64,000 nucleotides of DNA from an uncultured Litoreibacter sp. (GTDB lineage: Bacteria; Pseudomonadota; Alphaproteobacteria; Rhodobacterales; Rhodobacteraceae): NCBI RefSeq assembly GCF_947487515.1, contig NZ_CANKWO010000003.1, positions 451,103 through 515,102 of the forward strand, in the 5' to 3' direction. The position numbers and the translations under genes are program-made. Shown in pieces: positions 59,866-63,214 of this stretch. Under the pieces are notes generated by a model that was given only the letters and a program-made list of their open reading frames with translations, searched no databases and was not told the origin of the DNA. Position 1 is the first letter of the stretch; every line of letters starts with the position of its first letter.

Positions 59866-59896
59866 AAAAAAGGCCTTCCCGTTGAAGGAAGGCCTT
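59866..59896 (-). terminator. Intrinsic terminator of the sat-cysC gene
   Basis: A perfect 10-bp stem (aaggccttcc at 59870-59879, ggaaggcctt at 59887-59896) with a 7-nt loop is followed on the minus strand by tttttt. It begins 27 bases after the stop codon. Confidence 0.9.
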
Positions 59897-59922: not shown

Positions 59923-61983
59923 TTAGCCTTTGATCAGGCCCATCGACTCCAGTTTCAAAATCACCTGATGTGCGCAGTTGTCGACTTCAACATTCTCGGT
60001 TTCGACCGACAGCTCTGGGTTCTCGGGGACGTCATAGGGATCAGAAATCCCTGTGAATTCTTTGATCTTTCCTTCCCGAGCAAGCTTGTAGAGGCCCTTG
60101 CGGTCGCGACGCTCGCATTCCTCGATGCTGGTCGCAACATGGACTTCGATGAAGGCCCCAAAGGCTTCGATGTCCTCGCGTACTGCGCGACGCGTGGTGG
60201 CGTAGGGGGCAATCGGTGCACAGATGGCGATGCCACCGTTTTTGGTGATCTCGGAAGCCACGTAGCCGATACGACGGATGTTGAGGTCGCGGTGCTCTTT
60301 TGAGAAGCCCAGCTCGGAGCTGAGATTCTTACGCACGATGTCACCATCCAGCAAAGTAACCGGACGCCCGCCCATTTCCATCAATTTCACCATCAAGGCG
60401 TTCGCAATTGTGGATTTGCCAGAGCCGGAAAAACCAGTGAAGAACACCGTAAAGCCTTGGTTTGCACGCGGAGGACGTGACTTGCGCAGTTCTGTGACCA
60501 CTTGCGGGAAGGAGAACCATTCAGGGATTTCCAAGCCTTCGGCCAAACGGCGGCGCAACTCGGTGCCAGAAATATTCAGGACAGTAACGTTTTCGCGGTC
60601 TTTGATCTCATCCGCGGGTTCGTATTGGGCCCGCTCTTGCACATAGACCATGTGCTTGAAGTCGACCATTTCGATGCCCATTTCTTCTTGGTGCTCGCGG
60701 AACAAATCCTGTGCATCATACGGCCCGTAGAAGTCCTCTCCCGCAGAGTTGGAGCCAGGGCCGGCATGATCACGACCCACGATGAAGTGCGTGCAGCCGT
60801 GGTTCTTACGGATCAGGCCGTGCCAAACAGCCTCGCGTGGGCCTGCCATGCGCATGGCCAAGTTTAACAGGCTCATGGACGTGGTGGAGGAGGGGTATTG
60901 GTCCAACACCGCCTCGTAGCAGCGCACCCGTGTGAAGTGATCGATGTCGCCCGGTTTGGTCATGCCCACAACTGGGTGGATCAATAGGTTGGCCTGCGCT
61001 TCTTTGGCGGCGCGGAACGTCAGTTCTTGGTGCGCGCGGTGCAATGGGTTGCGGGTCTGGAAGGCCACAACTTTGCGCCAGCCCATTTTGCGGAAGTAGG
61101 CGCGCATCTCGTTTGGTGTGTCGCGACGGGCGCGGAAATCATAATGCACCGGCTGCTGAATGCCGGTAATCGGGCCGCCAAGGTAGATTTTGCCCGCTTG
61201 GTTGTGCAGGTAGTTCACCGCAGGGTGGGCGGTGTCATCCGCGCCGAAGACTTTTTCAGCCTCAAGGGCTTTGTTCGGCTCCCATTTGTCGGTCACAGAC
61301 ATCATCGCCAAAATCACGCCTTCTTGGTCGCGCAAGGCAATGTCTTGGCCGACTTCGATGGACTGTGCGAATTCGTCACCCACGTCCAAGGTGATTGGCA
61401 TTGGCCAAAGCTCACCCGTGGTCAGGCGCATGGTTTCAACGACGCTGTCGTAGTCGGCCTCGGACAGGAACCCTTTGAGGGGGTTGAAGCCGCCGTTCAT
61501 CAACAGTTCTAGGTCGCAGATTTGGCGTGGGGTCAGGTCCCAAGATGTCAGTTCTGCGGCTTCCAGCTTCATTTTCTGGGCGCTGTCGTATGACACATAG
61601 AGTTCTGGGATTGGCGTTAAGGCGTTGTTCATTAGTCTTGTCCTGTCACTGAGTGGGGAGAGGCTTGCGTGAGTGCCGGTTAATTCGGCGTGAAGAGCGT
61701 CGTATTCTTCGAACTTTCGTTTGAGAAACGCGTTGGTGAGTTGGTTTTTTGTGGAGCCGCCGCGCGCCGTTAAGGCGTATTCAAAGCGTTGGCGTTTGTC
61801 TGGCCCTGCGCGGTTGCTGATCTTGACCAAACCGGCCTCGGTCGCCGCGCGCAAAAGGGAGTTGAGCCGCCCAAGCGACACCCCCAAAGCGGTGGCGGTC
61901 GCCCGTTGCGACGCCTCTGGCGTCAGATCCAGCTGGCGCAAAAGCCGGAAAAGCAGGTCTTCATTGTCCAAAGCGGGTTTCAT
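59923..61983 (-). CDS. Bifunctional sulfate adenylyltransferase/APS kinase with N-terminal MarR-like winged helix
   Basis: The 686-residue protein has three parts in one uninterrupted frame. Residues 1-110 form a winged-helix domain (ASQRATATALGVSLGRLNSL; AGLVKISNRA), like MarR-type EPS-associated regulators. From residue 118 (MNNALTPIPELYVSYDSAQK) follow ATP sulfurylase (TRNPLHRAHQELTFRAAKEA, GRDHAGPG) and APS kinase (GFSGSGKST, LLDGDIVRKNLSSELGFSKE). Together the enzymes make PAPS from sulfate. An internal ATG at 61632 with agga eight bases before it could yield the enzyme alone (569 residues). Which form is made is not known. Confidence 0.9.
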   Translation of the reverse strand: MKPALDNEDLLFRLLRQLDLTPEASQRATATALGVSLGRLNSLLRAATEAGLVKISNRAGPDKRQRFEYALTARGGSTKNQLTNAFLKRKFEEYDALHAELTGTHASLSPLSDRTRLMNNALTPIPELYVSYDSAQKMKLEAAELTSWDLTPRQICDLELLMNGGFNPLKGFLSEADYDSVVETMRLTTGELWPMPITLDVGDEFAQSIEVGQDIALRDQEGVILAMMSVTDKWEPNKALEAEKVFGADDTAHPAVNYLHNQAGKIYLGGPITGIQQPVHYDFRARRDTPNEMRAYFRKMGWRKVVAFQTRNPLHRAHQELTFRAAKEAQANLLIHPVVGMTKPGDIDHFTRVRCYEAVLDQYPSSTTSMSLLNLAMRMAGPREAVWHGLIRKNHGCTHFIVGRDHAGPGSNSAGEDFYGPYDAQDLFREHQEEMGIEMVDFKHMVYVQERAQYEPADEIKDRENVTVLNISGTELRRRLAEGLEIPEWFSFPQVVTELRKSRPPRANQGFTVFFTGFSGSGKSTIANALMVKLMEMGGRPVTLLDGDIVRKNLSSELGFSKEHRDLNIRRIGYVASEITKNGGIAICAPIAPYATTRRAVREDIEAFGAFIEVHVATSIEECERRDRKGLYKLAREGKIKEFTGISDPYDVPENPELSVETENVEVDNCAHQVILKLESMGLIKG

Positions 61984-62109
61984 CGGCGAGGTCGTATTTT
62001 TGGTTCAGGTGTGTTCACGGGTGAACGCATCGCAGATTTCACGACAAAAACAAGAGGGGATTTGCGGGGAAAGCAATGCAGCATTTGTCGAAGCAAAATA
62101 GCCACAGTC

Positions 62110-62145
62110 AAAAAGAGCGCCTGCCGATGTCTCGGAGGCGCTCTT
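62110..62145 (-). terminator. Intrinsic terminator of trxB
   Basis: A 9-bp stem (aagagcgcc at 62113-62121, ggcgctctt at 62137-62145), with a 15-nt loop that can add a short inner ccga/tcgg stem, is followed on the minus strand by tttttg. It starts 36 bases past the trxB stop. Confidence 0.88.
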
Positions 62146-62181: not shown

Positions 62182-63123
62182 TTAGTCTTCTTCGGACAAG
62201 AAGCGCTCGGCCTCAAGTGCTGCCATACAGCCCATGCCAGCACTTGTGACGGCTTGCCGATACTTGTGATCGGTCAAATCGCCAGCAGCAAAAATACCTG
62301 GGATTGAGGTTTCAGTGCTGTCGGGTTTGGTCACTACATATCCGCCCATATGAGTTTCCAGCACGTCTTTGACCAACTCGTTTGAAGGGGCGTGGCCAAT
62401 GGCCACGAAGACGCCTTTGCACGGGATATCGGTGATTTCGCCGGTTTTCGTGTGCTTTACCTTAATCCCCTCGACGCTGAGAGGGGCCTCGGTGCCTGTG
62501 ACTTCGACCAGCTCGTGGAACCACAAAGGCTCAATCTTCGGGTTCTTTTCCAAGCGATCGATGAGGATCTTCTCGGCCCGCAACTCATCGCGGCGATGGA
62601 CCAATGTCACCTTGGAGGCGAACTTAGTCAGGAACAGCGCTTCCTCAACGGCTGTGTTGCCCCCACCGATGACGACGATTTCTTGGTTCCGGTAGAAGAA
62701 ACCGTCGCATGTGGCACATGCGGACACGCCGAAGCCTTTGAATTTCTCTTCGGTCTCCAGACCCAACCATTTGGCGCGCGCGCCGGTGGCCAAAATCACC
62801 GCGTCGGCGGTGTAGATGGTGCCGCTGTCGCCTTTCGCCTTGAACGGGCGGGATGTGGTGTCGAGGTCAGTGATAATATCGCCGATAATCTCGCAGCCCA
62901 TGGCCTTTGCATGATCTTGCATGCGCACCATCAAGTCTGGGCCTTGCACCTCGGTGTCACCCGGCCAGTTTTCAACTTCGGTGGTGGTGGTCAATTGGCC
63001 GCCAGGCTCGATGCCTTGCACCAAGATCGGGTCGAGCAAGGCCCGCGAGGCGTAGACGCCAGCGGTATACCCTGCGGGGCCCGAGCCGATGATCAAAACT
63101 TTGGTGTGGCGCGTGTCTGACAT
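62182..63123 (-). CDS. trxB: Thioredoxin reductase
   Basis: The 313-residue flavoenzyme has the FAD motif KVLIIGSGPAGYTAGVYASR, the redox pair CATC in SACATCDGFFYRN, the NADPH motif GGGNTAVEEALFL, and a C-terminal IFAAGDLTDHKYRQAVTSAG block. It reduces thioredoxin with NADPH. ATG 63123 gives the usual length; an earlier ATG (63159) would add 12 residues lying in the promoter region. Confidence 0.95.
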   Translation of the reverse strand: MSDTRHTKVLIIGSGPAGYTAGVYASRALLDPILVQGIEPGGQLTTTTEVENWPGDTEVQGPDLMVRMQDHAKAMGCEIIGDIITDLDTTSRPFKAKGDSGTIYTADAVILATGARAKWLGLETEEKFKGFGVSACATCDGFFYRNQEIVVIGGGNTAVEEALFLTKFASKVTLVHRRDELRAEKILIDRLEKNPKIEPLWFHELVEVTGTEAPLSVEGIKVKHTKTGEITDIPCKGVFVAIGHAPSNELVKDVLETHMGGYVVTKPDSTETSIPGIFAAGDLTDHKYRQAVTSAGMGCMAALEAERFLSEED

Positions 63124-63214
63124 AGCGGATTCCCATCGGCGATTTTTGAAGTCCGACACATATAATTGCGCTGTGGCCCAAGCGAAAGGGGGCAGCGAAC
63201 AATTTGCAGATCAT

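Follow-up and report, generated by a model that had tools for sequence, protein, structure and literature searches.

Does a bacterial enzyme that activates sulfate also regulate transcription, and if so, of which genes? The window analysed here, a stretch of 64,000 nucleotides from an uncultured Litoreibacter sp., raises this question through a gene in which a winged helix of the EPS-associated MarR type is joined to ATP sulfurylase-APS kinase (Sat-CysC). The initial annotation, made from the letters alone, proposed that an internal ATG yields a second product lacking the DNA-binding domain, and that the fusion acts as a trigger enzyme controlling genes of sulfur assimilation or polysaccharide sulfation. 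The features on which we base our answer are collected in Table 1.

Table 1. Positions in the window of the fused gene, its parts and its surroundings.
Feature	Position	Strand	Basis or remark
Fused gene, long form: winged helix + ATP sulfurylase + APS kinase, 686 aa (76.9 kDa)	59923..61983	-	ORF, profile matches, orthologous fusions
MarR_EPS-type winged helix, residues 7-104	61672..61965	-	TIGR04176 match and predicted fold
Short form, Sat-CysC, 569 aa (64.0 kDa), from internal ATG	59923..61632	-	Predicted from conserved start codon
Internal Shine-Dalgarno-like AGGA	61641..61644	-	12 to 9 nt before internal ATG
Candidate operator GTTCA-N4-TGAAC (GTTCACCCGTGAAC on minus strand)	62013..62026	.	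Near end 30 nt upstream of long start
Intrinsic-terminator-like hairpin 3' of fused gene	59870..59896	-	Fold -18.2 kcal/mol, z -3.0; terminator scan
Terminator-like hairpin with T tail, interval between trxB and fused gene	62110..62145	-	Fold -24.5 kcal/mol, z -6.6; not in terminator scan
trxB, thioredoxin reductase, upstream neighbour	62182..63159	-	TIGR01292, 393.6 bits

The fused gene and its distribution

The minus-strand frame is uninterrupted from an ATG at 61983 to a stop at 59923 (686 codons), and the nearest in-frame upstream stop lies 8 codons before that ATG. Residues 117-685 match the bifunctional Sat/CysC model NF004040 at 1042 bits (cut-off 669; profile positions 5-571 of 572), making the enzyme part a full-length member by score and coverage. 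Three sequences that we take to be the Sat/CysC catalytic motifs recur in 34/34 aligned fusions: RNPLHRAH and GRDHAGPG are invariant, as is GFSGSGKST bar its F. The catalytic-motif residues are thus intact in the aligned fusions, and both domains are predicted to be active. Ahead of the enzyme, residues 1-117 taken alone score 90.0 bits against the MarR_EPS model TIGR04176 (cut-off 88; 85.1, below cut-off, within the whole protein), and the domain's Pfam HTH_24 match exceeds its own cut-off, in agreement with the EPS-MarR kinship originally proposed. Helices are found at residues 7-20, 26-33 and 37-49, the last taken as the recognition helix, followed by wing strands at 53-56 and 68-71 and a long helix at 73-102. 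An AlphaFold2 model of the full-length protein was poor (mean pLDDT 65) and too weak for use. Genome searches returned one APS kinase match and one MarR_EPS match in the window genome, in both cases the fused gene. Judged by sequence and predicted fold, the protein is an enzyme with its own DNA-binding domain.

To establish how far this arrangement extends, we sampled 394 Rhodobacteraceae genomes from 393 genera, the window genome included. A match to the fused protein was found in 375/394 and, among the matches listed, at least 88 genomes, again counting that of the window, carry a complete in-frame fusion. A domain-profile search detected the domain in 135/394 genomes. The 90 rows at E 4.3e-49 or better comprise the 88 fusions, G381, which runs in frame into Sat-CysC as far as the contig end, and G032, a domain frame of 267 codons close to a contig start; weaker rows, among the matches listed, are mostly frames of 119-225 codons, and one of 713 codons (G296) is a divergent fusion. 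Domain matches in G241 and G286 were discarded, as they contain internal stops and no real domain, and a TAG flagged in G237 was dismissed because the frame is open across the domain junction. In a class-wide sample the domain matched at E 1e-6 in 62/289 genomes, and the matches listed from outside the family lie in frames of 80-343 codons, none Sat-CysC-sized, with the four best at 122-173 codons. A further named set comprised the best 80 of 294 related loci, retrieved with a peptide characteristic of the fused domain, hence biased to fusions; after 19 loci were dropped whose gene end was identical to that of a first-set member, 61/61 non-duplicate genomes were fused. Cultured strains with the fusion include Phaeobacter italicus CECT 7645 (L169) and Shimia marina CECT 7688 (L195). 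The two fusion sets (88 and 61) share genera, and we count their sequences as related rather than independent.

The N-terminal domains of the other 87 fusions are 52-73% identical to that of the window, the median dN/dS over 42 close pairs is 0.11, and 22 domain columns, situated in the helices and the wing, are invariant in 34/34 aligned fusions. Such purifying selection indicates that the long form is translated. Together, the at least 88 in-frame fusions, the low dN/dS and the 61 additional named genomes argue that the frame is neither chance nor sequencing error. The concerns raised at the outset, that resequencing might place a stop codon between the domains or that the upstream region might be unconserved, are contradicted by the open frame, its recurrence in 149 fusions across the two sets, and the conservation of the domain. 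The comparison of fused and separate forms suggested then has found both, with at least 88 fusions in the family sample and 19 free-standing family relatives chosen for study. Whether the fusion is lineage-wide had been left open; G171, the other sampled genome of the window's genus, is unfused, and by these genome comparisons the fusion is widespread in Rhodobacteraceae, spanning many genera, but not universal.

Among the nearest neighbours scanned (trxB, a weakly PPOX-like protein and an Lrp-like gene) no EPS gene was identified, and we class the domain as a fused relative of TIGR04176 rather than as an EPS regulator. trxB lies directly upstream in 49/84 fused, 38/59 named fused and 20/40 unfused loci (4 and 2 loci were skipped for short sequence), so fused and unfused forms often share the same place. 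As a terminator-like hairpin separates trxB from the fused gene, the fusion probably has its own promoter; a sigma-70 consensus scan of the region found 0 promoters, against 0.9 in shuffles. The CysH of the window genome is encoded on another contig, beside sulfite-reductase-like genes (L269, own genome C4). It contains two Cys-pair motifs, which we take to be typical of APS reductases, and its match to CysH family models does not separate APS from PAPS reductase. If CysH uses APS, PAPS would be a side branch.

A second start codon under selection

The internal ATG (61632-61630) corresponds to residue 118 of the long form and, as the initial annotation had it, is preceded by AGGA (61644-61641). 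In the first set the internal start, at the expected place or a few codons away, is ATG in 83, GTG in 4 and TTG in 1 (n=88), and AGGA occupies -12 in 85/88, the other 3 having no exact AGGA before the start scored. The named set has ATG in 50 and GTG in 11 (n=61), with AGGA no more than 16 nt before the start in 61/61 and AGG as the Arg codon in 61/61. Across the 149 fusions, the Arg codon bearing the AGGA is AGG in 146 of the 147 Arg-bearing sequences; among 45 columns with Arg in 90% or more of sequences, AGG reaches no more than 5.5% in any other, and it accounts for 0.9% of other Arg codons in the fused ORFs. Given the free codon variation at other Arg positions of these proteins, inheritance alone is an unlikely cause of this AGG. 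The start codon itself follows a similar rule. Its Met is replaced by Val in 15 sequences, all with GTG (15/15), a codon that makes up approximately 41% of Val codons in these ORFs, and once by Leu, encoded by TTG; in L052 and L084 the alignment shifted the start column and an ATG lies close by. Replacements in other mostly-Met columns are chiefly Leu, Ile and Gln.

Unfused orthologues have an ATG at, or near, the same residue in 40/40 cases, but AGGA at -12 in 1/40, the decayed G157, and at -11 in one more; the AGGA is therefore not simply inherited from the unfused gene. The divergent fusion (L100) retains an AGGA just ahead of the enzyme start in a different reading frame. On this codon-level evidence, the internal ribosome site and start codon are under selection at the nucleotide level, and their conservation over 149 genomes supports the earlier proposal that one gene makes two products.

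The candidate operator and its reach

A palindrome, GTTCA-N4-TGAAC, lies in the 90 nt that precede the long start in 86/88 first-set fusions and in the searched upstream stretch of 60/61 named fusions, and was absent from the 400 nt upstream of all 40 unfused genes, decayed G157 included. At one exceptional locus (L021) the upstream region is cut by the contig end and an overlapping contig has the palindrome, and two others (L024 and L222) have the operator with one mismatch only. In the 146/149 promoters that could be aligned on the operator, CTTT and TGnnAT elements are conserved directly upstream. The same 146 promoters also share TTTGAGTC just downstream, a TTGAGTC-like element at operator +19 to +25 that is absent from the window. 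Placed between the operator and the long start, it may be the ribosome site of the long form; in the window genome no obvious Shine-Dalgarno site for that start was seen by eye. In four promoters (G154, G159, G235 and G369) the operator is duplicated in tandem, the extra copy lying 47-49 nt further upstream; a looser palindrome count over the 146 promoters gave 25 second sites, for the most part at a distance of 32 or 49 nt upstream.

Relatives of the domain that are not fused to Sat-CysC carry similar sites. Outside the family we examined the 300 nt upstream of 28 of 61 domain matches, those with loci (L138-L165). A perfect GTTCA-N5-TGAAC was present in 21/28, and in 25/28 with one mismatch allowed (7/28 lack a perfect copy), against approximately none (0.15) expected from base shuffles; many of these relatives are frames of approximately 200-260 codons. 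Among other spacers from 2 to 8, N4 alone matched, in 2/28 with one mismatch, among the closest relatives. Inside the family, 19 free-standing relatives (L249-L267) were chosen by the analyst and counted without shuffle control: 9/19 have a perfect GTTCA-N4-TGAAC upstream, 12/19 with one mismatch, and 10/19 lack a perfect copy. Upstream of 15/19 there is also a GCGGTAG element, which we presume to be ops-like, and by eye the next gene after 15/19 is of polysaccharide type. Because palindromes stand upstream of 21/28 outside and 9/19 family relatives, the MarR_EPS-like domain family appears to recognise the TGAAC half-site and to share a conserved operator, spaced by N5 in distant and N4 in close relatives. 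This suggests a binding motif for MarR_EPS regulators. The fused form appears to have retained N4, as in its close relatives, but with changed flanks, TGYGTTCA..TGAACRCA at the fusion versus mostly CGTTCA..TGAACG at free-standing relatives.

We then asked whether the site marks a regulon, scanning the strict extended operator pattern, TNYGTTCANNNNTGAACRNA, in the 87 fused genomes other than that of the window. It occurs 82 times in 78/87 genomes (9/87 have no strict site), and 81/82 sites are at the fusion gene's own promoter: for 80 the distance to the 5' end of the fusion match is 17-115 nt, and one more (G190) is on an overlapping contig. The sole site elsewhere (G372) is within a sugar-transferase-like coding frame. 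Among 42 unfused, decayed or divergent genomes, one has a strict site, away from sat-cysC. In the window genome the core palindrome occurs in 3 places, versus 1 for the reversed pattern, namely the fusion promoter, an ABC-transporter-like coding frame and an intergenic position ahead of an AraC-type gene; GTTCA-N5-TGAAC occurs in 2 places versus 3 for its reverse, and the 3.5 kb around cysH contain no GTTCA-N4-TGAAC palindrome. The AraC-associated site (L133, own genome C1:852860) reads GTTCAGATATGAAC, lies approximately 35 nt ahead of the gene and has flanks unlike those of the fusion site; it is either chance or a weak second target.

Operator and domain, by these scans, co-occur, nearly always at one promoter per genome. 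A regulon beyond that promoter is unsupported by the distribution of strict sites and the scarcity of core sites in the window genome, and neither the 87 fused genomes nor the cysH region gave good evidence for control of other sulfur or sulfation genes. Of the original trigger-enzyme idea, the part that stands is thus a conserved candidate operator at the gene's own promoter; the part concerning other genes of sulfur assimilation or polysaccharide sulfation finds no support in these scans. The best reading of the site distribution is a regulator that is essentially single-target.

Mechanism, history and relation to known systems

We consider it probable that the fusion is an autoregulatory trigger enzyme, whose long form acts on the palindrome at its own promoter while a second, selected start makes the enzyme alone. 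Full-length wHTH-Sat-CysC would bind the GTTCA-N4-TGAAC site that directly precedes its own long start, presumably as a dimer formed through the enzyme or the long helix, and most likely repress rather than activate its own transcription, to a degree probably set by Sat or CysC active-site occupancy with ATP, sulfate, APS or PAPS. Initiation at residue 118 would give an enzyme without the DNA-binding domain, and one mRNA may serve both products. More tentatively, and as a conjecture we would not favour, the gene may form a self-tuning circuit on one transcript, in which the long form senses sulfate activation and represses, the short form is both bulk enzyme and mixed-dimer titrator, and the ratio of starts sets APS/PAPS supply.

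The history of the fusion bears on how these features arose. A tree built from 67 domains unites the 19 main-type fused rows in a single group (97/90; recovered in 99% of 200 bootstrap trees) and places the divergent L100 beside it as a long-branch sister (97/78), such that an independent second origin of the fusion is not borne out. In L100 (G296) itself the MarR_EPS-like domain joined to Sat-CysC is divergent, at 44% identity, and the locus has two N4 palindromes and an AGGA of its own; it may stem from a second fusion event or be a copy that evolves fast. Resolution is poor in the enzyme tree, where fused and unfused rows are intermixed; the tree would fit either an early fusion that was lost repeatedly or transfer, and its unfused rows are mostly those nearest the window's enzyme, not a random draw. 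No separate MarR gene was found beside unfused sat-cysC in a tblastn search with the window's domain at E up to 1e-3 (L092-L132), in which L100 alone matched. In G157 (L094) the domain lies in fragments in two frames and the operator is missing, with the enzyme frame, AGGA and internal ATG intact, an apparent joint loss of domain and operator.

Two simpler accounts would each discard one of the two products, and we regard both as very improbable. Were the 569-aa enzyme all that matters, with the upstream domain a relic or annotation artefact, one would point to the unfused orthologues, which begin at or near the same residue in 40/40, and to G157, where AGGA and internal ATG outlive a fragmented domain and a vanished operator; yet a dN/dS of approximately 0.11, 22 invariant columns in 34/34 sequences and an operator conserved together with the domain are at odds with a relic. 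The converse account, in which the long form alone is made and the ancestral enzyme start survives incidentally as the internal ATG and AGGA, gains from the fused Met being the unfused gene's start, whose descent could explain the Met. Descent fits poorly, however, with a synonymous AGG kept against codon bias (AGG being 0.9% of other Arg codons), with a Met replaced by start codons only once the two shifted rows are set aside, and with an AGGA at -12 in just the decayed G157 among 40 unfused genes.

Two further alternatives accept both the domain and its site. Full-length MarR proteins have extra helices that commonly form the ligand site; the domain here is shorter and no sensing site is visible, so it is conceivable, if not what we would expect, that it is an activator or a repressor indifferent to enzyme state, that is, a fixed autoregulator without metabolite sensing. 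Against this, the domain has stayed attached, in many genera, to an enzyme whose motifs are intact, which suggests that the enzyme supplies the signal. Wider control, in which the operator core that it has in common with free-standing MarR_EPS-like genes lets the fusion also govern genes of EPS, sulfation or other kinds, seems unlikely to us. That core does recur upstream of free-standing family relatives, mostly preceding polysaccharide-type genes, some fused genomes (e.g. G161, G202, G392) also have a free-standing MarR_EPS-like gene, and the window genome has its core site ahead of the AraC-type gene; but the operator flanks differ, strict sites are confined to the fusion promoter bar one in a coding frame, and the window genome has no other MarR_EPS match. 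Under autoregulation by a trigger enzyme, the operator and the regulator are both specified, and a single gene is predicted to give two protein forms; if true, this would be a case of programmed dual initiation in a trigger enzyme, and one conserved over many genera.

Our literature search found no description of a Sat-CysC/MarR_EPS fusion (subscription literature mostly lay outside its range) and no paper on sulfate-assimilation control in Rhodobacteraceae or Roseobacter. The MarR_EPS model names returned no match in the literature searched, and the descriptive name occurs in one listed paper (PMC10599003). For the few terms checked, a Proteobacteria regulon survey makes no mention of sulfate assimilation or cysteine (PMC5343134). 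The closest known systems each share part of the arrangement. Free-standing MarR_EPS regulators (TIGR04176) belong to the same winged-helix family, and many of those examined have TGAAC half-site palindromes upstream; they are separate proteins, which within the family mostly precede polysaccharide-type genes, frequently with GCGGTAG, whereas here the domain is enzyme-fused and its site has other flanks. With bifunctional Sat-CysC (NF004040; solved relatives include 2gks and 3cr8) the fusion shares its complete enzyme part, but in none of the 36 solved sequences matched at E 1e-5 does the best-scoring stretch cover the N-terminal DNA-binding domain. We take PutA and the fusion to differ in domain, pathway and operator. 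PutA, the proline trigger enzyme of E. coli, nevertheless resembles the fusion as an enzyme with its own DNA-binding function that is a single-target regulator at its own promoter; a dual start is absent from the parts of the PutA description consulted (PMC8249747). In BzdR, according to the sections consulted, an N-terminal DNA-binding domain precedes a shikimate-kinase-like domain and enzyme activity was lost in the BzdR line, whereas the fusion has a different enzyme and has kept its catalytic motifs (PMC3602430). The dual start, in turn, resembles that of AerR from Rhodobacter capsulatus, in which, in the part of the account consulted, an internal start with a putative ribosome site gives long and short isoforms with different regulatory roles, although AerR is a photoreceptor co-regulator, not a biosynthetic enzyme, and its expression also involves offset promoters and a CTG start (PMC6199135).
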